From: Haloarcula marina | GTDB lineage: Archaea; Halobacteriota; Halobacteria; Halobacteriales; Haloarculaceae | Length of the DNA stretch: 64,000 nt | Reading direction: 5' to 3' | Assembly (NCBI RefSeq): GCF_024218775.1 | Contig: NZ_CP100404.1 | Span: 868,001 to 932,000, forward strand | Part shown: positions 49,902 to 63,240 of the stretch, one piece after another | Layout of the letters: every line of letters begins with the position of its first letter | Numbering within the stretch: position 1 is the first letter of the stretch | The notes under the pieces: generated by a model | The model's input: the letters and a program-made list of their open reading frames with translations, nothing else | Told to the model about the DNA's origin: nothing | The model's database searches: none | Program-made: the position numbers and the translations under genes

Positions 49902-51053
49902 ATGTCGCTCACAATGTCAGAACGCAACACAATCGAAAGCAAACTACGCGCTCACGTCACCTCCGTCAAGGAGGACTTGATGACTGGGGTGTCGTTCATG
50001 ATTCCCTTCGTTACGATCGGCGGTATCTTCCTCGCCGTCGCGTACGCGATAGGGGATACGCAGGCCGTCTTCGACAACACCGGGTCGGCCGGTTGGTTCC
50101 TGGCACAGATTGGGGTCGCCGGTCTGACCATCATGGTCCCCATCCTCGGTGCCTACATCGCGTACGCCATCGCGGACCGTCCGGGGCTGGCACCCGGTTT
50201 CCTGCTGGCGTACATCCTCCAGCAGGGAACCGTCATCGAACAGGCGGCCGGGGTCATCGGCCTCTCCGGCGGCGGCGCGGGAGCGGGCTACCTCGGTGCA
50301 ATCGTCGCCGGGTTGCTGGCTGGCTACGTCGCGCGGTGGTTCAAGAGCCGCGACGTTCCGGGATTCATCCAGCCGATGATGCCGGTCCTCATCATCCCCG
50401 TGGCGACCATGGCCGTCCTCACTCCCATCATGCTGTTCGTACTGGGCGTGCCCGTCGCACTCGCGAATCAGGGCCTCACCGGCTTCCTGCAGTCGATGCA
50501 GGGCGGGCAGGCCATCGTCGTCGGCCTCATCCTCGGCGGGATGATGGCCTTCGACATGGGCGGTCCCGTGAACAAGGTGGCCTACGTCTTCTCGACGGGT
50601 CTCATCACCGAGGGCATCTACGCGCCGATGGCGGCCGTGATGATCGGCGGGATGGTCCCGCCGATTGGCATGGCGATTTCGAACTTCATCGCGCCGCACA
50701 AGTACGCGGCCGAGATGTACGAGAACGCCAAGAGCGGTGTCGTTCTCGGCTCCTCGTTCATCACCGAGGGCGCGATTCCGTACGGGGCCGCCGACCCCCT
50801 CCGCGTCATCCCGTCCGTCGTCGCCGGCAGCGCCGTCGGCGGCGCGCTCTCGATGGCCATGAACGTCACGATGCCCGCCCCCCACGGCGGCGTCTTCGTC
50901 ATCCTGCTGTCGAACAAGCCCCTGGTGTTCGTCGGGTGCATCCTCCTCGGGTCGCTGGTCACCGCGACTGTCGCGACGGTCATCAAGCCCGACTTCGAGG
51001 ACCGCATCGAAGCCGAACGCTCGGCGGGCAACGCACAGCCGACTAACGACTGA
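49902..51053 (+). CDS. ptfC: PTS fructose transporter subunit IIC
   Basis: A 383-residue membrane protein that moves fructose through the membrane as it is phosphorylated. Family segments: GVSFMIPFVTIGGIFLAVAYAIG at the N terminus, GFIQPMMPVLIIPV, GGMMAFDMGGPVNKVAYVF, SSFITEGAIPYGAADPLRVIP, and MPAPHGGVFV. Single IIC domain without fused IIA/IIB, as in Haloferax. Starts at 49902 or 49914; the A/T box favours the former. Confidence 0.95.
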   Translation: MSLTMSERNTIESKLRAHVTSVKEDLMTGVSFMIPFVTIGGIFLAVAYAIGDTQAVFDNTGSAGWFLAQIGVAGLTIMVPILGAYIAYAIADRPGLAPGFLLAYILQQGTVIEQAAGVIGLSGGGAGAGYLGAIVAGLLAGYVARWFKSRDVPGFIQPMMPVLIIPVATMAVLTPIMLFVLGVPVALANQGLTGFLQSMQGGQAIVVGLILGGMMAFDMGGPVNKVAYVFSTGLITEGIYAPMAAVMIGGMVPPIGMAISNFIAPHKYAAEMYENAKSGVVLGSSFITEGAIPYGAADPLRVIPSVVAGSAVGGALSMAMNVTMPAPHGGVFVILLSNKPLVFVGCILLGSLVTATVATVIKPDFEDRIEAERSAGNAQPTND

Positions 51054-51121
51054 ACACACGGACACAGCGGACAGCTAGCACCCACACACAGAGTCACATC
51101 CGAACCCGTTACACCAACACA

Positions 51122-51598
51122 ATGGCAGACGCAATCGCACACGACGACGTCGAGGAACTGATTCCGGCGAGCCACATCTCGCTGACCGAACCGCCCGCGG
51201 AGAAGGAGGCGTGCATCGAACACCTGCTCGACCTGCTGGTCGAGTCCGGCCGGGTCGACGACCGGCAGACGGCGCTCGACGCCCTGCTCGCCCGCGAGGA
51301 GCAGACGACCACCGGCGTCGGCATGGGCATCGGTATCCCCCACGCGAAGACCGACGCAGTCAGCGAATCCTCGCTCGCGTTCACGCGCTCGACATCCGGG
51401 GTCGACTTCGGGTCGATGGACGGCGAACCCGCGACACTCGTCTTCATGATACTCGTCCCGGAGGCGGGCGGCGAGGACCACCTCACCATCCTCAGTTCGC
51501 TCTCACGCGCGCTGATGCACGACGACATCCGCGACCGCCTCCACGAGGCCGACGACGAGGCGGCCGTGCAGGCCACGCTCCGGGAGGCAATCGCATGA
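51122..51598 (+). CDS. ptfA: PTS fructose subunit IIA
   Basis: A 158-residue IIA of the fructose/mannitol family. Phosphorylated His74 is in GIGIPHAKTDAV. It receives phosphate from HPr and passes it to IIB. Follows ptfC by 68 bases and overlaps ptsH by four bases (ATGA). Confidence 0.95.
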   Translation: MADAIAHDDVEELIPASHISLTEPPAEKEACIEHLLDLLVESGRVDDRQTALDALLAREEQTTTGVGMGIGIPHAKTDAVSESSLAFTRSTSGVDFGSMDGEPATLVFMILVPEAGGEDHLTILSSLSRALMHDDIRDRLHEADDEAAVQATLREAIA

Positions 51599-51873
51599 CG
51601 CTCGAACGCACCGTCGAAATCGTCCCCGAAGCGGGACTCCACGCCCGCCCGGCGGCGGCCTTCGTCGAGGCCGTCACCGACCACGAGGCCGAGGTGTCGG
51701 CCGCCAAATCCGGCGAGGACCCCGTGCAGGCGGGGAGTATGATAGCCGTCACCAGCCTCGGCGTCGGACAGGGTGACGAACTCCACCTCGTCGCCGACGG
51801 CCCGGACGCCGAGGCCGTACTGGACGAACTCGAACGGATACTGACCACGCCCGAGGAGGAACTGAGCGCCTGA
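51595..51873 (+). CDS. ptsH1: Phosphocarrier protein HPr
   Basis: A 92-residue HPr. The phosphorylation site His16 lies in EAGLHARPAAAF; the second motif is the Ser-region (AAKSGEDPVQAGSMIAVTSLGV). The ATG at 51595 overlaps the ptfA stop; the longer frame from 51211 is a shadow. Followed two bases later by ptsI. Confidence 0.95.
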   Translation: MTLERTVEIVPEAGLHARPAAAFVEAVTDHEAEVSAAKSGEDPVQAGSMIAVTSLGVGQGDELHLVADGPDAEAVLDELERILTTPEEELSA

Positions 51874-51875
51874 CG

Positions 51876-53564
51876 ATGGCCGACCGAACCCTCAACGGAA
51901 CGGGCGCGACGCCGCGGTCGGGCCTCGGAACCGTCGTCTGGTACGACCCGGAGATATCGCTCCCCGACCCCGACGACGCGAGCGTCGACCGCGCGGCCGA
52001 GACCGCTCGGTTCGAGGACGCCGTCGAGACCGCTCGCGCCGAACTCGAAGCCGAACGTGCGGCGACCGCCGACCGCGTCGGCGAGGAGGAGGCCGCCGTC
52101 TTCGACGCGCACGTCAAGTTCCTCGAAGACCCGACCATCGCGGACGCCGTCGAGACCGGTATCGCGGACGGACTCCCCGCCGCGAACGCCGTCGACGACG
52201 CCTTCGGTGACCACATCGAGCAGTTCGAGGGCATGGACGGTCGGATGGCCGAACGGGCGGACGACCTGCGAGACGTTCGCGACCGACTGCTCCGAGTGTT
52301 GACCGACGGCGAGCGCGTCGACCTCGGGGACCTCCCCGAGGGCAGCGTCGTCCTCGCCGAACGGCTGACTCCCAGCGACACGGCGCAACTCGACCCCGAG
52401 ACCGTCGCCGGGTTCGCGACGGTGACCGGCGGCCGCACCTCGCACGCGGCTATCTTCGCCCGGTCGCTGGCGCTCCCCGCCGTCGTCGGCGTCGGTGACG
52501 CGCTGGACGATGTCTCGGAAGGGGCCGAAGTCGTCGTCGACGGCGACGCCGGAACGCTACTGGTCGGCCCCGACGGGGCCGAACGCGAGGCCGCCGCCGC
52601 CGATACCGGGGCGGCAGTCGTCGAGAAAGCCGTCGAGACGACCGACGGCCGTCACGTCGAAGTCGCGGCCAACGTCGGCCGCACCGAGGAGTTGGCGGCG
52701 GCCGCCGACCGCGGCGCGGACGGCGTCGGCCTGTTCCGAACCGAGTTCCTCTTCCTCGACCGGGAGTCGCCCCCCTCGGAGGACGAGCAGTACGAGGCCG
52801 TCCGCGAGGCGCTCGATACGTTCCCCGACGGTCGCGTCGTCGTCCGCACGCTCGACATCGGCGGCGACAAGCGCATCCCCTACCTCAACCTCCCCGAGGA
52901 ATCGAACCCCTTCCTCGGCGAGCGCGGGATTCGGCGCTCGTTGGACCCGGACTCGGACCTCTTCGGGACGCAACTTCGTGCGCTCCTCCGAGCGACGGCC
53001 GACGGCGCTGGCGAACTCGCCGTCATGTTCCCGCTGGTCGCCACCGTCGACGAACTCGACGCGGCGCTCGACGCCGTCGACGCGGCCGCGGCCGACCTCG
53101 ACGACCGGGGTGTCGACTACGAGCGCCCGTCGATGGGCGTGATGGTCGAGACGCCCAGCGCCGTGTTCGTGGCCGACGAACTGGCGGCGCGCGTCGACTT
53201 CCTCTCCATCGGGACGAACGACCTCACCCAGTACGTGATGGCCGCCGACCGCGAGAACGAACGCGTCGACGACCTCCACGACCCGACGCATCCGGGCGTC
53301 GTCCGGGCGATTCACCGCGCGGTCACGGCGGCCCACGAGGAAGACGCGTGGGTCGGGATGTGCGGCGAGATGGCTGGCAATCCGGACCTGACGGAACTGC
53401 TCGTCGGCCTCGGATTGGACGAACTCAGCATGAGCGCCGTCACCATCCCCGACGTGAAAACCGCAGTCGCCGAAACGGCGTACAGTACCGCGAGCGAGCG
53501 TGCCGACAGCGCTCGTCTCGCCGCAACGCGCAGTGCAGTCCAGAACACGATTCACGACACATGA
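51876..53564 (+). CDS. ptsI: PTS enzyme I (phosphoenolpyruvate-protein phosphotransferase)
   Basis: A 562-residue enzyme I. The phosphohistidine His190 is in TGGRTSHAAI; the PEP-binding barrel contains GLFRTEFLFLDR, RTLDIGGDKRIPYL, FSIGTNDLTQY and the catalytic Cys in GMCGEMAG. It starts the phosphate relay from PEP to HPr. Its stop overlaps the ptfB start (ATGA). Confidence 0.96.
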   Translation: MADRTLNGTGATPRSGLGTVVWYDPEISLPDPDDASVDRAAETARFEDAVETARAELEAERAATADRVGEEEAAVFDAHVKFLEDPTIADAVETGIADGLPAANAVDDAFGDHIEQFEGMDGRMAERADDLRDVRDRLLRVLTDGERVDLGDLPEGSVVLAERLTPSDTAQLDPETVAGFATVTGGRTSHAAIFARSLALPAVVGVGDALDDVSEGAEVVVDGDAGTLLVGPDGAEREAAAADTGAAVVEKAVETTDGRHVEVAANVGRTEELAAAADRGADGVGLFRTEFLFLDRESPPSEDEQYEAVREALDTFPDGRVVVRTLDIGGDKRIPYLNLPEESNPFLGERGIRRSLDPDSDLFGTQLRALLRATADGAGELAVMFPLVATVDELDAALDAVDAAAADLDDRGVDYERPSMGVMVETPSAVFVADELAARVDFLSIGTNDLTQYVMAADRENERVDDLHDPTHPGVVRAIHRAVTAAHEEDAWVGMCGEMAGNPDLTELLVGLGLDELSMSAVTIPDVKTAVAETAYSTASERADSARLAATRSAVQNTIHDT

Positions 53565-54010
53565 ACTTCGTCGCAGTAACCGCGTGCCCGACGGGCATCG
53601 CACACAGTCAGATGGCAGCAGAGAACTTAGAACAGACCGCCGCAGAGCAGGGCCACGACATCGAAGTCGAGATACAGGGCGCGATGGGCGCGGAGAACGA
53701 ACTCTCCGCGGCCGACATCGCGGACGCCGACGCCGTCATCATCGCGGCCGACACGGCCGTCAGTCAGGACCGCTTCGACGACGTGCCGGTTGTCAAAGGC
53801 ACCGTCAAATCGGCCGTCAACGACGTCGAGGGCCTGCTTGCCGAAGCCGTCGATGTCGCTGGCGGCGACGGCGAAACGGACGCCTCACAGTCGAACGAAC
53901 CCGCCGAAACCGGCGACCACAGCGACGCGAGCGGTGACGAACCGCAGCGTCGGCGCGGCGGCGACCGTTCGAAAGGACTCGTCGCACAACTGAAGAAACT
54001 GCTCGGCTGA
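53561..54010 (+). CDS. ptfB: PTS fructose subunit IIB with acidic linker and basic C-terminal helix
   Basis: A 149-residue IIB. The phosphocysteine Cys9 lies in ACPTGIAHSQMAAE, the fructose-type IIB signature. After the ~100-residue IIB domain comes an acidic, disordered stretch (DGETDASQSNEPAET...) and a terminal basic amphipathic helix (RSKGLVAQLKKLLG) that might touch the membrane or IIC. The ATG at 53561 overlaps the ptsI stop. Confidence 0.94.
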   Translation: MNFVAVTACPTGIAHSQMAAENLEQTAAEQGHDIEVEIQGAMGAENELSAADIADADAVIIAADTAVSQDRFDDVPVVKGTVKSAVNDVEGLLAEAVDVAGGDGETDASQSNEPAETGDHSDASGDEPQRRRGGDRSKGLVAQLKKLLG

Positions 54011-54100
54011 ACGCGTCCGACGATTCCCCCGACGTAGCCGACTACGTCTCGCCATTGCTACCGCAGCAACCACACCGAACCCAGACACCACACCGACACC

Positions 54101-54883
54101 ATGCACGACCTCACCGATTCACCGCTCGTTCGCAACGACAAGACACTCGTCCTCGCTCACGACCACGGCCTCGAACACGGCCCGAAGCAGTTCAGTGGCG
54201 TCGAGGAGCGACTCGACCCGCGCGAAGTGTTCGAGATGGCGACCCACGACGCCGTCACCGCCCTCGCCGTCGGCAAGGGCCTCGCCGAGACGTACTATCC
54301 GAGTTACGAGGACGACGTGAACCTGCTGGCGAAACTCAACGGCGGGTCCGACCTCTGGATGGGCGACCCGTACTCGGCGCACAACTGGTCCGTCGACTAC
54401 GCCGCCGAACTCGGTGCGGACGCCATCGGCTATACGATTTACCCCGGCGTGAACAAAGAGCCAGAGATGTTCGAGGACTTCCGACCGGTCCAGGAGGCCG
54501 CCCGCGAACACGACCTGCCCATCGCGATGTGGTCGTACCCGCGCGGACAGGCCATCAAGGACCACCGGACGCGAGACATCATCGCCTACGCCGCCCGCAT
54601 CGGCCTCGAACTCGGCGCTGACTTCACGAAGGTGAAGTACCCGCGGAGCAAGGAAGCGATGGCCCACGCCGTCGACGCCGCCGCCGACAACCGCATCCTC
54701 CTCTCGGGCGGGTCGAAGGCCTCGGACCGGGACTTCCTCGAACTCGTCGCGGACTGCATGGACGTGGGCGTCTCGGGGCTGGCCGTCGGCCGGAACGTCT
54801 GGCAGCGCGATGACCCCTACGACATCCTCGACAAACTCGACGAAGTCGTCTTCGAGGAAGCCGCCGTCGACGACGTGCTGTAG
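54101..54883 (+). CDS. fba: Class I fructose-bisphosphate aldolase, archaeal (DhnA) type
   Basis: A 260-residue Schiff-base aldolase that cleaves fructose 1,6-bisphosphate. The Schiff-base Lys lies in ADFTKVKYP; the phosphate site is LLSGGSKASD and VSGLAVGRNVWQ. AHDHGLEHGP near the N terminus is family-typical. It follows ptfB by 90 bases and completes the fructose path. A 1-phosphofructokinase (PfkB) and the GlpR regulator usually seen with this set are not in the window. Confidence 0.95.
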   Translation: MHDLTDSPLVRNDKTLVLAHDHGLEHGPKQFSGVEERLDPREVFEMATHDAVTALAVGKGLAETYYPSYEDDVNLLAKLNGGSDLWMGDPYSAHNWSVDYAAELGADAIGYTIYPGVNKEPEMFEDFRPVQEAAREHDLPIAMWSYPRGQAIKDHRTRDIIAYAARIGLELGADFTKVKYPRSKEAMAHAVDAAADNRILLSGGSKASDRDFLELVADCMDVGVSGLAVGRNVWQRDDPYDILDKLDEVVFEEAAVDDVL

Positions 54884-55541: not shown

Positions 55542-56582
55542 CTACGGAGTAATGACGGCGCGGCCGTCTATCTCGCGGTCCTCTAGCTTCTGGGCGACAT
55601 CGTTGACGTCTTCGAGGTCGTACCGGGTGGTGTGGAGATCGACCTCGCCGCGCTCGACCAGCGCGACCAGTTCCTGCAGTTCGGCGTAGCGGCCGACGAT
55701 GTTCCCTTGGTAGGCAAACTCGCCGTTGACGAGTGCCTGTGCAGGCTCGTGGATGTGGCCGCCGTAGCCGATGATGTAGTGGTCGCCACCCGCGGCACAG
55801 ATGTCGGGTGCGAGTGCGGTGGTCTCGTCGGCTCCGACGAAGTCCAGAACCTGGGCCGCGCCGACACCGTCCGTGATATTCTCGATCTCCTCGGCCACGT
55901 CCTCGCTCGTCGGGTCGATTGTGTAGCGGGCACCCAGGTCGGAACCGAGGTCACGCGCGGACTCCTTGACGTCGACTGCGACGATGTCGGCAGCGCTCAT
56001 CGCGTCGACACACTGCAGACCGATGTGTCCGAGGCCGCCGACACCAATCACGACGGCGGCGTCGCCGGGATTGAGTCCGTCGACGGCTTTCTTCGCGGCG
56101 TGGTAGGCGGTGATACCGGCATCGGCGTGGGGCGCGATGTCGGCCGGGTCGACGCCGTCAGGGAGCGGGATAACCGACCGCTCGCTCGTGTGGAGTTCGT
56201 CGGCGAACCCGCCGTCAGTCGTCAGCCCGTTGAACGCGTCGTTCTCACAGTACATCGTCTCGCCCTGTCGGCAGGGCCGACAGGTACCGCAGGTCTGGAC
56301 CGGGTGACAGATGACTTGGTCGCCCTCCGAGACGATGTTGACTTCGTCGCCGACGTCGACGACGGTCCCGGCGTTCTCGTGACCCAGTGTCATCGGCAGC
56401 GGCTGTGGGACGTACTGTTCCCACATTCCCTCGATAATGTGGTTGTCCGTCTGGCACCAGCCGGCGCCCTCTACTTCGACGATGACGTCGGACCCGCCGG
56501 ATACCTGTGGCTTGTCGACCTCGTCGATCGAGAGGCCGTCGCTCATGTCGTGCGTGTATTCGTGTAAGCGTGCTGCTCGCAT
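55542..56582 (-). CDS. Zinc-dependent alcohol dehydrogenase (MDR superfamily)
   Basis: A 346-residue medium-chain dehydrogenase. Catalytic zinc ligands are Cys (GWCQTDNH) and GHENAG; the structural zinc site is CGTCRPCRQGETMYC; the cofactor fold has VIGVGGLGHIGLQ with an acidic residue later (IVAVDVKE), pointing to NAD. The ATG at 56582 gives MRAARLHEY, the family start. It has its own A/T box (56611-56620) and follows the DUF59 gene on the same strand. Bacterial propane-monooxygenase clusters carry a similar enzyme for the alcohol product. Confidence 0.93.
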   Translation of the reverse strand: MRAARLHEYTHDMSDGLSIDEVDKPQVSGGSDVIVEVEGAGWCQTDNHIIEGMWEQYVPQPLPMTLGHENAGTVVDVGDEVNIVSEGDQVICHPVQTCGTCRPCRQGETMYCENDAFNGLTTDGGFADELHTSERSVIPLPDGVDPADIAPHADAGITAYHAAKKAVDGLNPGDAAVVIGVGGLGHIGLQCVDAMSAADIVAVDVKESARDLGSDLGARYTIDPTSEDVAEEIENITDGVGAAQVLDFVGADETTALAPDICAAGGDHYIIGYGGHIHEPAQALVNGEFAYQGNIVGRYAELQELVALVERGEVDLHTTRYDLEDVNDVAQKLEDREIDGRAVITP

Positions 56583-56610
56583 GATACAGTCTACCTTCCT
56601 CATCTATAGT

Positions 56611-56620
56611 TATAAATTTA
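56611..56620 (-). promoter_or_regulatory. A/T box for the alcohol dehydrogenase gene
   Basis: On the minus strand the segment reads TAAATTTATA, about 30 bases before the ATG at 56582. Confidence 0.5.
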
Positions 56621-56746
56621 AGGATGGCTCAAAACGATACTAGATTCGGAGATATCGCTTCCGGTGGGGGAGAATTCCGCTGTTGTCAGCTTTCGGCCGA
56701 CTGCGTGAGGGGGCTCGCTCCCTCGTCGTTCACCGCAAGGCGGGTC

Positions 56747-57520
56747 TCACCTCGCGTAGGAATCCGGTCTGTCGGGGTCGAAGCGAGCCTCGTTGAGCGC
56801 GTCACAGATGTTGCCTTGCCCGCTCATGTTCACCTTCGCAAGGCGCGTCCGCTTGTGGACGAGGTCGAACCGGTCGGGGTCGATAGGCTCTCCCTCTGGC
56901 GTCCGAAACAGCAGGTCGTCTTCGGAACTGAAGACTCCCGACACCGCGGCTTTCTCGACGTAGTCGGCGAGGACCTCGCCGTCGACGGGGATAGCCACCG
57001 CGCCATCGCGGACGTAAACGACCGCCTCGTCGTCATCGAGTGAAAGGTCTCCGCGGACGAGTCGCGTTATCTGCACCTCCGAGAGTCCCGCGTCCAGCAG
57101 TTCGTTCATCGCGTCGTACTGCCGACCGACCCGGGCCTTGTCGTCGAGCGACGCCCGGATGCTCTCGACGCCACCGTCAGCGTCCGGAAAGACGCTTCCG
57201 AAGGTGTCGCGACTGTTGATACCATCGGTAATTTCGGTCTCGTGCAAATGCTCGCGGAGCGTAATTCGTGCCCGTTTGACGGTGTCCAGCGCTTCGACCT
57301 CATCGCGGGCGTCTGCCGCCATCATCCAGGCGAACGCTGGCGAACACCACGCCGTCGGGAGCGAGAAAGTCACGTCGACTGTCGTTTCGCTCACCGTGAT
57401 GTCGTCGATATAGTCCAACTCGACGATGGACTCGTCGAGTTCGGGGTCGGTCACATTGTCCAGTCGTCCACGAACCGCACGGACCGTCGGGGACGTATCC
57501 GTCTGCGTTGTACTCGACAT
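56747..57520 (-). CDS. Long DUF59/MIP18-domain protein (iron-sulfur cluster assembly-like)
   Basis: A 257-residue protein. Residues ~10-85 form a MIP18/DUF59 domain (VRGRLDNVTDPELDESIVELDYIDDITV...VDVTFSLPTAWCSPAFAWMMAADARDEV) with the conserved DPE and a Cys. The remaining ~170 residues have no domain I recognise. In bacterial propane/alkane monooxygenase clusters a protein of this type sits next to an amidohydrolase, and probably helps mature the di-iron or Fe-S partners. Its ATG overlaps the amidohydrolase stop (ATGA), so they are co-translated. Confidence 0.88.
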   Translation of the reverse strand: MSSTTQTDTSPTVRAVRGRLDNVTDPELDESIVELDYIDDITVSETTVDVTFSLPTAWCSPAFAWMMAADARDEVEALDTVKRARITLREHLHETEITDGINSRDTFGSVFPDADGGVESIRASLDDKARVGRQYDAMNELLDAGLSEVQITRLVRGDLSLDDDEAVVYVRDGAVAIPVDGEVLADYVEKAAVSGVFSSEDDLLFRTPEGEPIDPDRFDLVHKRTRLAKVNMSGQGNICDALNEARFDPDRPDSYAR

Positions 57521-58578
57521 CAGTCTGCCGTAGCGTCCGTGGCGCCGTAGTGGTCGGCCAGTCCGAACTGTTCGGTGACTGCGTCTGTCCGGAACTGTTC
57601 TTTCTTCGCCTCGATATCGATGTCGTAGAGCTCGGCGATGTTTTCGCCCATTATCTTCTTCATGACGTCCGTTGTAAGCTCGACACCGTACTCGTCTTGT
57701 TGCTCGTCGGTGAGTTCAGCGTTCATCACCGTCTCGACGAGCCAATCGGGGTTCCACAGGGCGTAGTCAGACCCGAAGATGATGCGGTCCTCACCGAGCC
57801 AGTACAGCAGTTCGCCCATTATCTCGCCGAACTTTCGAGGGCGGTTCTGCGCCATCGGCGCGGCCACTGCCAGTCCGCCGTAGACGTTCGGTTCTTGGGC
57901 GGCGATCCAACAGAAGTCGTCGAGGCGAGGGAGGCCGACGTGTTCGACGACGAAGTCCAGTTCGGGGAACGAACTCGCCGCGTCGTCAACATCGGCCACG
58001 TCGAACGCGTCACGGTTCAGCGGGCGAATTGTGGGCCCCTTGTGCGCGTGTATCTTGTCGATACCGAGCTCAACACACTTTTCGAGGAATTCGAAGGATT
58101 CGTCGCTGTCGAGTCGCCAGCCCTTCGACTCGCCGCGCCACTCTGCGGTGTACACCTTGACGCCCTCGATGTCGTACTCCTCCTTTTTCCGTTCGAGTTC
58201 GCGCATCCCTTCCTCGCCGTCACGCGGGTCAAAACTGCCGTTGAGGACGAACCGCTCCGGGTACTCCTCGGCGAGTTCCGCGTTCTGATCTGTCGTATTG
58301 AAACCCTCGTCGTAGAAGTCCGTGAGGTACGTCGGCTGGAAGATGGCCATGTCGGCAGCGGCGTTCTCGAAGAAGTCGGTCATCATTCGCTCCGCGCCGT
58401 AGTGGCGGTACTCTTCGAGACTCCACTGCCGTTCTTCCGGTGTGAAACCGGTGTGATAGTCGTAGAAACACTGAATAAACTCTTCGCCTCCCTGATGTTT
58501 GATATTCTCCTCACGCGCGTCCCAGAGGTGGACGTGACCGTCGATGACGAATATCTCTTCGCCGTTTTGCTGGTACAT
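57520..58578 (-). CDS. Amidohydrolase 2 family protein, similar to the one in propane-monooxygenase clusters
   Basis: A 352-residue TIM-barrel metal hydrolase of the ACMSD-like amidohydrolase group. Metal ligands: HxH in DGHVHLWD, His in HAHKGPTIRP, His in EHVGLPR, Asp in GSDYALWNPDW. The sequence reads closely like the amidohydrolase beside mycobacterial/Gordonia propane monooxygenase genes (CFYDYH, FQPTYL, YTAEW, HKGPTIRPLNRDAFDVAD, QEPNVYGGLAVA, GELLYWL), as I recall it. The GTG at 58590 is in frame, but the A/T box at 58601-58610 and the family start (MYxxxGE) support ATG 58578. Confidence 0.92.
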   Translation of the reverse strand: MYQQNGEEIFVIDGHVHLWDAREENIKHQGGEEFIQCFYDYHTGFTPEERQWSLEEYRHYGAERMMTDFFENAAADMAIFQPTYLTDFYDEGFNTTDQNAELAEEYPERFVLNGSFDPRDGEEGMRELERKKEEYDIEGVKVYTAEWRGESKGWRLDSDESFEFLEKCVELGIDKIHAHKGPTIRPLNRDAFDVADVDDAASSFPELDFVVEHVGLPRLDDFCWIAAQEPNVYGGLAVAAPMAQNRPRKFGEIMGELLYWLGEDRIIFGSDYALWNPDWLVETVMNAELTDEQQDEYGVELTTDVMKKIMGENIAELYDIDIEAKKEQFRTDAVTEQFGLADHYGATDATAD

Positions 58579-59072
58579 CGCGTGTGCCACATAGTACCAA
58601 TTGTTAATAATTCTTTCTCAAGGATATGGTTGGTAGAGGCGCCAAGAAGACGCAATTCGGCGGATACCCGATTCACGGCTGTTGAACGGTGATTGTCTCG
58701 CACTTTTGCGTCGGCACTGGCTATTCGGGAAGCTATCCCGATTTCTCCAGGAAATTTTCGGCTAATTCCGCGTGCGTACGGTGGATTATTCATAATCGGG
58801 GTGTGAACAACCCCCATACACGCAGTTCAATGCTGTTGAATCTCTTTCTGAGTGGGACCGCAGTGGACAGGTACGTCCGCAACACCATTCGGCCACGAGG
58901 ACCGATGCGTAACTGAACTGGCGACTACAGTCGGGAAAGTACTGTCTGGCTCGTGCCAGTAATATCTATATTGTCAGTAACTCACCAGCGGTACCGGCCT
59001 ACTCGGACCGCGGCGTCACTGTGCGTTCAATCAGGGTGAATATTAATTACAATTCGGATCGTTCTAGTGTCC
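58579..59072. other. Divergent control region between amidohydrolase and IclR genes
   Basis: No gene seen. It holds an A/T box for the amidohydrolase (minus, TTGTTAATAA at 58601-58610), an inverted repeat TCGGGA/TCCCGA around 58735-58751, and an A/T box TATTAATTA near 59040-59048 about 26 bases before the IclR ATG. Confidence 0.55.
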
Positions 59073-59849
59073 ATGAGCGAAAATCAGGCGAAAAAGCGCA
59101 TCGAGGCTTCGGCCCGAACCCTCGAACTCCTCCAAACAGTCGCCGCTATCGGGCCCGCATCGGCGACGGACATCGCCACCGAACTCGACTTCCCGAAGAG
59201 CACGGCGTACTACCACCTCGAGACACTGGCGGACTTCGAGTTTGTCGTTCGGCGGAGCGACGGCTATCAGCTCAGTATGAACTTCCTCACAATGGGCCAC
59301 GACCTGGTCAACCAACTGGACATCTACCAGGCTGGCAAGCCACAGATTGACCGTCTCGCCGATGAGACTGGCGAGCTGTCTATCCTCATGACCGAAGAGC
59401 ACGGGCAGGGCTACTACATCTACGACAACCGTGGCGAGGGTGCGGTCAACTTCGACACCATCGGCAACCGAAAACCTCTCCACAACAATGCACTCGGGAA
59501 AGCTGTGCTCGCACACATGGACGAGAGCCGCGTCGACGACATCTTCGCTCGGTACGGCTTCCCGGCGACGACGGACCAGACAATCACCGACCGCGAAACG
59601 CTGCAATCGGAACTGGCGACTGCGCGCTCTGAGGGGGTCGCATTCGACCGAGAGGAGCAACTGGACGGACTCTGTTGTGTGGCTGCCCCAATTTTGCACC
59701 CCGAGTCTAGCGATGACCGGGTCATCAGGGGTGCTATCAGCGTCGCAGTCCCTGCGAGCCGCGCGAAGGGGGCATATTTCACAGAAGAACTGCCGATGGC
59801 GGTTTCCGACGCAGCAAACCTCATCGAACTAGAACTGCAGGAGTACTGA
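59073..59849 (+). CDS. IclR-family transcriptional regulator
   Basis: A 258-residue regulator with a winged helix (ASATDIATELDFPKSTAYYHLETLADFEFV) and an IclR effector domain (GNRKPLHNNALGKAVLAHMDES...REEQLDGLCCVAAPILHP...ISVAVPASR). It is divergent from the amidohydrolase-DUF59-dehydrogenase set, the likely target. A GTG at 59067 is in frame; the A/T box position supports ATG 59073, making it leaderless. Confidence 0.92.
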   Translation: MSENQAKKRIEASARTLELLQTVAAIGPASATDIATELDFPKSTAYYHLETLADFEFVVRRSDGYQLSMNFLTMGHDLVNQLDIYQAGKPQIDRLADETGELSILMTEEHGQGYYIYDNRGEGAVNFDTIGNRKPLHNNALGKAVLAHMDESRVDDIFARYGFPATTDQTITDRETLQSELATARSEGVAFDREEQLDGLCCVAAPILHPESSDDRVIRGAISVAVPASRAKGAYFTEELPMAVSDAANLIELELQEY

Positions 59850-60169: not shown

Positions 60170-60940
60170 CTATCCGGGTAGAGATATTTCCAGTTCGAAC
60201 TCGTTAGCGATTCCGAGAACCTTGTTCGGGAGTTCGTTCTCGAACCATTCGTCGTCCATGCGCTTTGCCGGACTCGCGACGCTGAAGGACCCGATGTTTC
60301 GGCCGTCCGGTCCACCGACCGGGACGCCGACCGCCTTGACGCCGTCGAGTTGCTCTTCGTGGTTGAACGCGAATCCTCTGTCCCTAATCGTGTCGAGTTC
60401 GTCGAGCAGTTCGTCGCGGTCCGTTATCGACCGCTGCGTCTCGGGTTGCAGCCCGTGGCGCTCGATTATCTCCTCGACTCGCGGCCGCGGTAGTTCGGAG
60501 AGAATCGCCTTTCCACTCGCGGTGACGTGGAGCGGTGCCTGCTTTCCGACGGTCGAATAGCTCCAGACGGCGTGCTTTCCTGAATGCGTGTACAGGTACA
60601 CGCCGCGGCCGTGTTCCTCGACGACGAACACCGCCCGGCAATCCGTCTCTTCTGCGAGTTGTTCGGTGTAGGACTGCGCCGTCTTGTACTCATCGCGGAG
60701 GTTACGCACGTGCGTTCCGAGTCTGAGGAACTCGAAACTGAGTCGATAGAAGTCGCCCTCTTTCGCGACGAACTCTTCTGCTTCTAAGGTCGCGAGATGG
60801 CTGTGGACCGTGCTCGAGGCCATTCCGAGCGCGTCGGCGAGTTCGGTCACTCGCGCTTCACCGTGTTCTTCAAGTGCTCTAACGACGGCGAGCGTGGTTT
60901 TCGTCGTCTGCAACGTCCGTGATTGTGTGTTGGTTCCCAT
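60170..60940 (-). CDS. IclR-family transcriptional regulator
   Basis: A 256-residue regulator: winged helix (ARVTELADALGMASSTVHSHLATLEAEEFV) and effector domain (YSTVGKQAPLHVTASGKAILSELPRP...NHEEQLDGVKAVGVPVGGPDGRNIGSFSVASPAKR). An ATG at 60946 is in frame, but a strong A/T box (GTATATAAAA on the plus strand, 60961-60970) centred 26 bases away supports ATG 60940 (MGTN). It lies upstream of the BKACE gene, same strand, and may control it or the divergent SDR/transporter genes. Confidence 0.92.
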   Translation of the reverse strand: MGTNTQSRTLQTTKTTLAVVRALEEHGEARVTELADALGMASSTVHSHLATLEAEEFVAKEGDFYRLSFEFLRLGTHVRNLRDEYKTAQSYTEQLAEETDCRAVFVVEEHGRGVYLYTHSGKHAVWSYSTVGKQAPLHVTASGKAILSELPRPRVEEIIERHGLQPETQRSITDRDELLDELDTIRDRGFAFNHEEQLDGVKAVGVPVGGPDGRNIGSFSVASPAKRMDDEWFENELPNKVLGIANEFELEISLPG

Positions 60941-61368
60941 GCACATGGTCTTTCGGCGAGGTATATAAAATCCACTGCTGCGGGAAAACCCGTGGCTGTG
61001 GTTCTGTCACAAGGGGCCTTCGCGCTCTGTATTTTCTAATCGCATGGGGGTATTTGCTGTAATGCGGTTTGGGGGGCTCTACAGCGTCGGAACAGTGGCC
61101 ACATATAAAGTCCATTTTGGGTGAATGAACTGTGGGATTCCTATTCTGCAACCAAGTCTGCCGTATATTTATACATATGTTTGTACTATATCCAAAATGC
61201 TGTGGTTTTTCGATGTAACAAATGCGCTCTGCGGGGCTCGGCGACACCCCAATTCGCGAAGTGCGAATAGAGGAATTATTTATCGTGTAGGATGCTCCGT
61301 CTCGTCGGTACTGTTGGCACTACTCCCGGTACAAGCACACGAACGACGTTGAATGTCCGAAACGAGCC
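60941..61368. other. Intergenic region upstream of the IclR gene
   Basis: No gene seen. Holds the IclR A/T box (60961-60970), an A/T-rich block at about 61160-61195, and a short inverted repeat ATTCGC/GCGAAT around 61252-61268. Right side is the end of the BKACE gene. Confidence 0.5.
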
Positions 61369-62223
61369 TCAGAGACCAAGCATCTCACGCGCTTCGTCGG
61401 GACTCGCTATCGGTCGGTTCAGTTCGTCGGCGATGCGAGCGGCGCGCTCGACGAACTGGGCGTTGCTCTCTGCGAGCTCTCCCTTTCGGTAGTAGATGTT
61501 GTCTTCCATCCCGACCCGGACGTGCCCACCCAGCGTGATGGCCATCGTCGTCAGCGGGAGTTGATGACGGCCAACCGCGAGCGCCTGCCACTCGGCCGGG
61601 GCCGGGAGATTGTCGACCAGATTCAGGAGGTTACGAGGATGTGGTGGCGTCCCCGTTTGCATCCCGAGGATGAGCGTACACCAATACGGTGTCTCCAGCA
61701 GGCCCTCGTCGATGAGGTGTTCCATTTCGGGGTAGTGGCCGGGATTGAACACTTCCAGTTCCGGTTTCACCCCCGCCTCGCGCATCCGCTCGGCGTACTC
61801 CTCGTTCTGTTCCCGCGTGTTCTCTGCCGTACGGGTCTGCCCGAAGTTCATCGGCCCGAGGTCCATCGTCGCCATCTCCGGTCGCGGTTCCGTTTCGAGT
61901 ACGGGCGCGATACGTTCCTCGCGGGAGTAGATACCGCCGCCGCCTGTGGTGAAGTTGACGATGATGTCGTCGCAGTACTCGTCGATGGCGTCGAGGAGTT
62001 CCTGATACCGCGCGACGGACTTCGTCTTCTTGCCATCCTCGTCCCGCGCGTGGAGGTGAACGATGGACGCGCCAGCCTCCTCACAGGCCGCGAGGTCCTG
62101 TGCGACTTCGACCGGTTGCTCCGGCAGATTCGGGTTCGCGTCTTTCCCGTGGTGCCCGCCGGTCGTTGCTACACTGATTATCAACTTCTTCTCGAAGTAG
62201 TCGGCGTACCCGCTGTATGGCAT
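61369..62223 (-). CDS. Beta-keto acid cleavage enzyme (BKACE, DUF849)
   Basis: A 284-residue TIM-barrel zinc enzyme that splits a beta-keto acid with acetyl-CoA, giving acetoacetate and a CoA ester. Zinc ligands His56 and His58 (IVHLHARDEDG) and Glu in HVRVGMEDN are present, with ATTGGHHGKDANPNLP at the N terminus and FTTGGGG in the core. The ATG at 62223 (MPYSGYADY) is preceded by an A/T box at 62245-62254 at leaderless distance; the longer upstream frame is not supported. The specific keto acid cannot be predicted without active-site modelling. Confidence 0.93.
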   Translation of the reverse strand: MPYSGYADYFEKKLIISVATTGGHHGKDANPNLPEQPVEVAQDLAACEEAGASIVHLHARDEDGKKTKSVARYQELLDAIDEYCDDIIVNFTTGGGGIYSREERIAPVLETEPRPEMATMDLGPMNFGQTRTAENTREQNEEYAERMREAGVKPELEVFNPGHYPEMEHLIDEGLLETPYWCTLILGMQTGTPPHPRNLLNLVDNLPAPAEWQALAVGRHQLPLTTMAITLGGHVRVGMEDNIYYRKGELAESNAQFVERAARIADELNRPIASPDEAREMLGL

Positions 62224-62244
62224 CGTGCGAATGGTCGCGGAACG

Positions 62245-62254
62245 ATTATTTAGA
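62245..62254 (-). promoter_or_regulatory. A/T box for the BKACE gene
   Basis: Minus strand reads TCTAAATAAT, centred 27 bases before the ATG at 62223; the gene should be leaderless. Confidence 0.5.
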
Positions 62255-62431
62255 GTTTGTGGTGGCACGCTCTCTCCGGGGTCCACACTGCAGTTTCGCG
62301 CGCGGAAGCCCGGGAGCAGTCGCTGCCGAGTCCCCTCAATCAGCACAGCGGGGAGACAGGATGCCGGTGGGGGTTGGACGCTGTCGTCTCATCTGTCGAC
62401 AGTTCTGCCTGTGCGGCCCCGATGTGGGGAA

Positions 62432-62463: not shown

Positions 62464-63240
62464 ATGCGTCCCGAGAGTACCGCTATCGTCACTGGTGGCG
62501 CCCGCGGTATCGGACAGTCAATCTGTGTAGAACTCGCGCGAAGAGGGGCGGACGTCGTCGTCGCTGACCTCAATGGCGACGAGATGGCCGAAACCGAGAC
62601 GCTGGTCGAGGAGACCGGTCAGCGCTGCGTCGGCGTCGAGACCGACGTGTCCTCGGCCGACAGCGTCGGCAGTACGGTCGACTGGGTACTCGACGAGTTC
62701 GGGTCCATCGAGTGTCTGGTAAACAACGCGGGTATCGCCGGCCCGACGGCACCCTGCGAGGACGTTCAGCCGGAAGATTGGGAGCAGACGCTCGCCGTCA
62801 ACCTCAAGGGGCCCTTCCAGATGTGTCGGGCCGTCATCCCGCAGATGAAGCAGGCGTCGTACGGTCGCATCGTCAACATCGCCTCGGTGACCGGGAAGCG
62901 ACCGCTGCCGAACCGGACCCCCTACGCGACGAGCAAGATGGGTGTTATCGGACTGACGCGGACGCTGGCGGCCGAAGTAGGCGGCGAGAACATCAACGTC
63001 AACGCTGTCTGCCCGGGGTCCGTTGAGGGGCCTCGCATCCGGAAGGTCTTCGAGCGCCAGGCCTCCGAGACCGGCCGAACCTACGAGGAAATCAGAGGTG
63101 ACGTCGAACGGGAGACAGCACGCGGCGAACTCGTCGAACGGGAGGACGTCGCGGACCTGGTCGGCTACCTCTGTTCGGAACAGTCGAAACGAATCACCGG
63201 GCAGGACATCAACGTCTCGGCCGGGAAAATCATGTATTGA
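62464..63240 (+). CDS. Short-chain dehydrogenase/reductase (SDR)
   Basis: A 258-residue classical SDR: TGGARGIG (10-17), DLNGDE after strand 2 (acidic, NAD preference likely), NNAGIAGPTAPCEDV, catalytic Ser/Tyr/Lys in ASVTGKRPLPNRTPYATSKMG, and a C-terminal ITGQDINVSAGKIMY. Divergent from BKACE and followed by a transporter lipoprotein gene on the same strand, so it probably oxidises the imported substrate or makes the keto acid for BKACE. Substrate unknown. Confidence 0.93.
   Translation: MRPESTAIVTGGARGIGQSICVELARRGADVVVADLNGDEMAETETLVEETGQRCVGVETDVSSADSVGSTVDWVLDEFGSIECLVNNAGIAGPTAPCEDVQPEDWEQTLAVNLKGPFQMCRAVIPQMKQASYGRIVNIASVTGKRPLPNRTPYATSKMGVIGLTRTLAAEVGGENINVNAVCPGSVEGPRIRKVFERQASETGRTYEEIRGDVERETARGELVEREDVADLVGYLCSEQSKRITGQDINVSAGKIMY

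Follow-up and report, generated by a model that had tools for sequence, protein, structure and literature searches.

In Rhodococcus, Mycobacterium smegmatis and Gordonia, the prm/mim clusters for propane (phenol/acetone) monooxygenase carry, downstream of prmABCD, genes for a metal-dependent hydrolase, a metal-sulfur cluster enzyme, an alcohol dehydrogenase (ADH) and a GroEL (PMC4428276). The hydrolase and DUF59 genes of these clusters have been listed for years, and no demonstrated role for them was found in the literature. Described here is a set of three genes from the haloarchaeon Haloarcula marina, encoding an amidohydrolase (AH), a DUF59 protein and an ADH, located in a stretch of 64,000 nucleotides of contig NZ_CP100404.1 (positions 868,001 to 932,000; the whole stretch is called the window). 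A first-pass annotation had reported this trio, with no oxygenase subunits in view, and had stated that the same kinds of gene accompany the prm/mim monooxygenases, which belong to the bacterial multicomponent monooxygenases (BMMs). Open reading frame (ORF) and Pfam analysis found all three genes and no oxygenase subunit in the window, and this association is seen both in PMC4428276 and in plasmid-borne BMM clusters. On balance, the trio is probably an autonomous catabolic module in which the AH is a metalloenzyme metallated by the co-encoded DUF59 protein, and not a leftover of a monooxygenase cluster.

Homologues of the AH with 50–57% identity were identified by tblastn on plasmids of Caballeronia, Aminobacter, Ponticoccus, Paracoccus, Gemmobacter, Bradyrhizobium and Rhodococcus. 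At these loci the AH gene lies within a full BMM cluster, after the gene for an MmoB-like coupling protein (with the ADH gene between them in two), and is followed by DUF59 and then GroEL. The AH is 49–59% identical to the copies in BMM clusters of Proteobacteria and Actinobacteria, and belongs to the same family as the prm/mim enzyme, to which it had been said to read closely; the DUF59 protein is mostly 23–33% identical to its BMM-cluster counterparts. Compared with the prm/mim clusters of Rhodococcus, Gordonia and Mycobacterium (PMC4428276), the AH, DUF59 and ADH are homologous, and the gene order AH-DUF59-ADH is identical to that of the actinobacterial clusters. However, the set in the window is without oxygenase, reductase, coupling protein and GroEL, and its regulator is of the IclR family rather than the sigma-54/Fis type.

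The possibility that an oxygenase is encoded elsewhere in the genome, raised by the first-pass annotation, was not upheld. Profile searches of the 3.74-Mb genome of H. marina gave no match to PF02332, for which positive control matches were obtained in BMM plasmids, and none to PF02406, a weak negative as no positive control matched this profile. The phenylacetyl-CoA epoxidase subunit PaaA (PF05138) was also absent, its positive control being found in Haloferax volcanii. A hidden BMM was thus rejected, as was PaaA as a client of the DUF59 protein. Among 391 haloarchaeal genomes, the AH was present in 123, representing 44 of 86 genera and only two of the own-genus genomes listed, and was almost always single-copy. 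A PF02332 BMM was found in four of the 391, none of them among the 123 with AH; since only four genomes have a BMM, this shows independence of the two and not exclusion. The haloarchaeal BMM hydroxylases (L125–L132, L171, L172) are rare and distant from MimA, and the two of their loci that were inspected (L171 and L172) contain no AH, DUF59 or GroEL gene. At least 16 bacterial genomes were found by whole-genome checks to have the AH and no PF02332, several of them being metagenome-assembled genomes, in which absence is weaker evidence. The BMM-free bacteria include Bacillota, Chloroflexota, Rubrobacter, Ignavibacteriota, Poribacteria, Salinisphaera, Acidocella, Streptosporangium and others; bacterial AH loci were taken from a scan of named genomes as the best 80 loci, a sample biased to near relatives.

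Gene neighbourhoods were counted with our own profiles over all loci, after removal of duplicates and of a truncated BMM locus (L080). This gave 73 distinct BMM-free loci (45 haloarchaeal and 28 bacterial). In 72 of these the DUF59 gene lies within 3 kb of the AH gene and on the same strand, the exception (L115) being cut by a contig end; an ADH gene is beside AH in 58 of the 73, and GroEL is near AH in none of them, the window included. At the 35 BMM loci, DUF59 was counted in 34 and GroEL in 32. Within a set of 31 haloarchaeal genomes, six AH and DUF59 pairs no more than 1.5 kb apart were observed, against 0.3 expected. These counts place the trio far beyond a chance arrangement. The two genes are inseparable across these loci, and their pairing is independent of both BMM and GroEL. 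No further gene accompanies the pair constantly, the other neighbours varying by genus. Next to the pair there is a DJ-1/PfpI gene at three loci of Bacillota, a gene for lactoylglutathione lyase in one Rhizobium, and an iron-type ADH gene at two loci; although not constant, these neighbours are suggestive of small carbonyl compounds.

Trees of the AH and DUF59 proteins together with copies from monooxygenase clusters, which the first-pass annotation had called for, were built. In the AH tree the haloarchaeal proteins form one supported clade beside the bacterial AHs (SH-like approximate likelihood ratio test, SH-aLRT, 99), and the label "BMM" requires approximately 12 changes, at least seven of them by well-supported branches. 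Locus L080 was entered as BMM-free in this tree, so that the figure of 12 may be a slight overestimate. The DUF59 tree likewise places the haloarchaea in one clade (100) and requires approximately 10 changes of the label; in both trees such counts do not separate gain of a BMM from its loss. It had been argued that the link with monooxygenases would fall if the AH grouped elsewhere and the pair never occurred near a BMM, and neither is the case. On a plasmid of Rhodococcus aetherivorans BW2 (L007:5588-12522) the AH-DUF59-ADH-GroEL set is intact, but beside it there are only a truncated mimA and an ADH fragment, without mimBCD; the oxygenase has apparently decayed and the module has stayed. In Prauserella (L105, L109, L124) one trio belongs to a mim cluster, and another, divergent from it and free of a BMM, lies ~5 kb away. 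In Thermomicrobium roseum an IclR-DUF59-AH-ADH set shares a plasmid with a BMM ~370 kb away. Within the BMM clusters, pairwise-distance correlations, of which the ranking alone was used as shared species history contributes to them, were 0.97 for MimA-GroEL, 0.91 for AH-DUF59 and 0.80 for AH-MimA. By this ranking, BMM clusters behave as two sub-modules, namely oxygenase with GroEL and AH with DUF59.

The AH gives a full-length match to the PF04909 profile (positions 1–289, above the cut-off), and its predicted structure is a triosephosphate isomerase (TIM) barrel (predicted local distance difference test, pLDDT, 89). Foldseek placed the model nearest to the uncharacterised protein BB4693 (3irs), followed by PF04909 hydratases and decarboxylases; 3irs was also the sole significant match among sequences of the Protein Data Bank (PDB). 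The metal-ligand pattern fits Amidohydro_2 (HxH, a His on strand 5, a His on strand 6 and an Asp on strand 8), and the ligands are highly conserved (H18 in 90/90; H20 in 84/90; H182, H216 and D274 in 91/91). Alignments of the close AH family show H18, K144, H182, K183, H216 and D274 to be invariant. In six close AHs, including that of Peribacillus (e.g., L003:7989-9011), the second His of the HxH motif is replaced by Ala, and the more distant paired AHs retain H20, K144, H182, K183 and H216 and not H18; the metal site may therefore tolerate one missing ligand. The described Amidohydro_2 enzymes, such as the 4-oxalomesaconate hydratase LigJ and the gamma-resorcylate and 5-carboxyvanillate decarboxylases, have the TIM barrel and the metal-binding histidines and aspartate in common with the AH. 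They are only ~15% identical to it, however, and the AH differs from them in its invariant K144 on strand 4, its H182-K183 and its near-obligate DUF59 neighbour.

The DUF59 protein has an N-terminal DUF59 domain with an invariant Cys59 (Pfam and alignments) and a C-terminal part of ~165 residues with invariant Cys239 and Arg246. Its predicted structure has a pLDDT of 89.5, and solved DUF59 structures match the N-terminal part only; for the C-terminal part no solved relative was found by sequence and no credible fold match was obtained. By family membership the protein is a putative iron or iron-sulfur (Fe-S) carrier. The DUF59 domain and its conserved Cys are common to this protein, SufT and PaaD, which it differs from in the extra C-terminal part with Cys239 and in being genetically tied to an amidohydrolase and not to suf or paa genes. 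The nearest solved structures to the ADH in a PDB search are those of the Aeropyrum pernix ADH (1h2b, 306 bits) and the Rhodococcus ruber secondary ADH-A (2xaa, 178 bits), and it may be of the secondary-alcohol type.

The pairing extends to the wider AH family. AHs with 25–35% identity are also paired with DUF59 (L153, L154, L155, L157, L158 and, in H. marina itself, L170), the partner being a short DUF59 protein in Nonomuraea, Natrinema, Sinorhizobium, Haloarcula and Natronorubrum. The distant AHs of the rhizobia Ensifer and Shinella (L156:4989-6304 and L160:3489-4792) are directly followed by a NifU-domain protein, which replaces DUF59, while a further Ensifer AH at L159 (28% identity) is unpaired. 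The second pair of H. marina is ~14 kb from the first, at G000:C1:940533-942064 (L170:9034-10565; also placed at C1:940839-941932), so that of the three DUF59 genes in this genome two adjoin an AH. Its neighbours are short-chain dehydrogenase (SDR), aldehyde dehydrogenase (ALDH), AMP-binding ligase, OB-fold/thiolase, universal stress protein and gamma carbonic anhydrase-like genes, with a chemotaxis transducer fused to a periplasmic-binding domain encoded upstream. In four haloarchaea (G004:C12, G016:C30, G070:C1 and G136:C1) a short DUF59 gene with a strong score lies 3.4–4.1 kb from another Amidohydro_2 gene; this DUF59 gene may encode the PaaD of a phenylacetate cluster. In the papers searched, no relevant account of an amidohydrolase-DUF59 pair was found.

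The link between AH and DUF59 persists without BMM, GroEL, ADH or regulator, and distant relatives show it again with NifU as the carrier. This is most simply explained if the AH itself is the client of the carrier, requiring iron or at least assisted metallation. In the proposed mechanism the metal of the AH active site, most likely iron, would be delivered by the DUF59 protein, and the ADH would convert a small alcohol to a ketone or an aldehyde, or the reverse, feeding or draining the AH step depending on the direction of the pathway. The IclR regulator would switch the operon. In propane- and phenol-oxidising bacteria the module is joined to a BMM and a dedicated GroEL, and the BMM would supply the alcohol, which in haloarchaea would come from another source. 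The ADH neighbour, together with the SDR, ALDH, ligase and thiolase genes at the second pair, indicates a role in breaking down small alcohols and carbonyls. The suggestion of the first-pass annotation that the trio serves another metabolism, perhaps as a metal-enzyme maturation module used more widely, is thus retained for the wide use without BMM, while the evidence favours the AH itself over an external oxygenase as partner of the maturation protein.

Several points weigh against this reading. Enzymes of the AH family usually acquire zinc or manganese without a known chaperone, and no biochemistry was found in the literature for any member of this particular family. An attempt to deduce the substrate from conserved neighbours failed, the flanking genes differing between genera. 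The ADH may not be pathway-specific, as it is missing beside 15 of the 73 BMM-free AHs and a copy 84% identical to that of the trio is present in the genome (G000:C1:2355338-2356375; L180:8339-9376) with neither AH nor DUF59 adjoining. Finally, the DUF59 protein could serve a third enzyme encoded elsewhere.

A rival but unlikely reading is that AH and DUF59 jointly serve the maturation of another enzyme, acting on the di-iron BMM in bacteria and on another metalloenzyme, encoded elsewhere, in haloarchaea. This would account for the constancy of the two genes beside GroEL in mim/prm clusters, and the family to which DUF59 proteins belong (PF01883) is one of iron-sulfur assembly factors. However, a BMM is absent from all 123 haloarchaeal and from 16 bacterial genomes with AH, the four haloarchaea with a BMM are without AH, with neither DUF59 nor GroEL at the two loci inspected, and PaaA is likewise absent from H. 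marina. The pair also has no constant third gene nearby, and the AH residues of catalytic type are invariant. A further reading goes beyond the autonomous module and is held somewhat more doubtful still. By it, the AH clade would be iron or Fe-S dependent, non-hydrolytic and possibly oxidative on small ketones or alcohols, each member having its own DUF59- or NifU-type carrier, and the trio would be a complete, hitherto unrecognised pathway of alcohol/ketone degradation in archaea and bacteria, with propane monooxygenases as a later addition to it.

It is improbable that the AH is an oxygen-activating dinuclear enzyme like AibH2, PtmU3 and SfbO (PMC7782822, PMC10811679, PMC10401708), replacing the missing monooxygenase and receiving iron from DUF59. 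The AH has its Pfam family and fold in common with these enzymes, SfbO chains (8sm6) are among the Foldseek matches of its model, K144 on strand 4 could bridge two metals, and an iron-sulfur protein is likewise encoded alongside AibH2 and SfbO, as the iron-carrier partner is alongside the AH. The partner of the AH is, however, an assembly or carrier protein and not a Rieske ferredoxin, and neither a Rieske ferredoxin nor a reductase is a recurrent neighbour. The AibH2 ligands are D25, H27, H211, E265, D337 and H340 (PMC10401708, PMC7782822), forming the pattern D-x-H, H, E, D-x-x-H, where the AH has H18-x-H20, H216 and D274 with I/L277; H18 thus replaces the first D, H216 the E and I/L277 the last H (equated by barrel strand and motif, with no direct AibH2 alignment). 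SfbO and AibH2 were unmatched in the profile search, and this type of oxygenase was rejected on the ligand set, as judged by strand and motif. The reading that the trio is a relict of an ancestral complete BMM cluster, useless since the oxygenase was lost, is very improbable: losses of the BMM are possible, given how often its presence switches along the AH tree, and the BW2 plasmid offers an example, but AH conservation and clade structure disfavour it, as the haloarchaeal AHs look selection-maintained, forming a single clade that is mostly single-copy, with nearly all members 67–94% identical to the window AH and frames open, while GroEL is never retained and the BMM-free module spans several phyla.

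The features of the locus are listed in Table 1. AH, DUF59 and ADH form a single minus-strand run, and the IclR gene, as had been stated at first pass, is divergent from it. The ATGA overlap given there for AH and DUF59 needs correction, being one base (TGATG at 57520); a true ATGA overlap is present in the second pair. A TATA-like TTATTAA element is found ~20–35 bases upstream of the AH start codon, and for the ADH an inner ATG at ~56582 is used by its nearest relatives in alignment.

Table 1. Genes of the trio and of its flanks in the window
Feature	Positions	Strand	Evidence
AH (amidohydrolase, Amidohydro_2)	57520-58578	minus	ATG start; PF04909, 167.5 bits
DUF59 (FeS_assembly_P), 257 aa	56747-57520	minus	PF01883, 52.8 bits
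Zinc-type NAD(P)-dependent ADH	55542-56603	minus	ADH_N + ADH_zinc_N (Pfam)
Divergent IclR-family regulator	59067-59849	plus	IclR_C (Pfam)
Second IclR-family regulator, convergent	60170-60946	minus	Pfam
BKACE (beta-keto acid cleavage enzyme)	61369-62346	minus	PF05853
Short-chain dehydrogenase, 3-hydroxybutyrate dehydrogenase type	62464-63240	plus	Pfam/NCBIfam

In its closest relatives (G081, G158 and G358; neighbourhoods L133–L135) the trio also has the divergent IclR gene at its side, and from its position this gene is the probable regulator of the trio. No clear conserved operator emerged from alignment of four IclR-AH intergenic regions. Among close relatives, the second IclR gene adjoins the module only in G081, which is also the only one to conserve the order of the BKACE gene (L133). 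BKACE, a catabolic enzyme, and the 3-hydroxybutyrate dehydrogenase-type SDR are probably encoded by flanking genes in separate units. On the other side of the trio, positions 49902-54883 hold what looks like a haloarchaeal sugar uptake cluster of the phosphotransferase type (EIIC, EIIA, HPr, EI and EIIB, read from ORFs) and, after it, a DeoC-type class I aldolase gene (PF01791).

The comparison divides propane monooxygenase clusters into an oxygenase part with GroEL and a part consisting of AH and DUF59, the latter standing alone in about a third of the sampled haloarchaea. It suggests a general rule, namely that there is a clade of Amidohydro_2 enzymes with dedicated iron or iron-sulfur carriers, either DUF59 or NifU.

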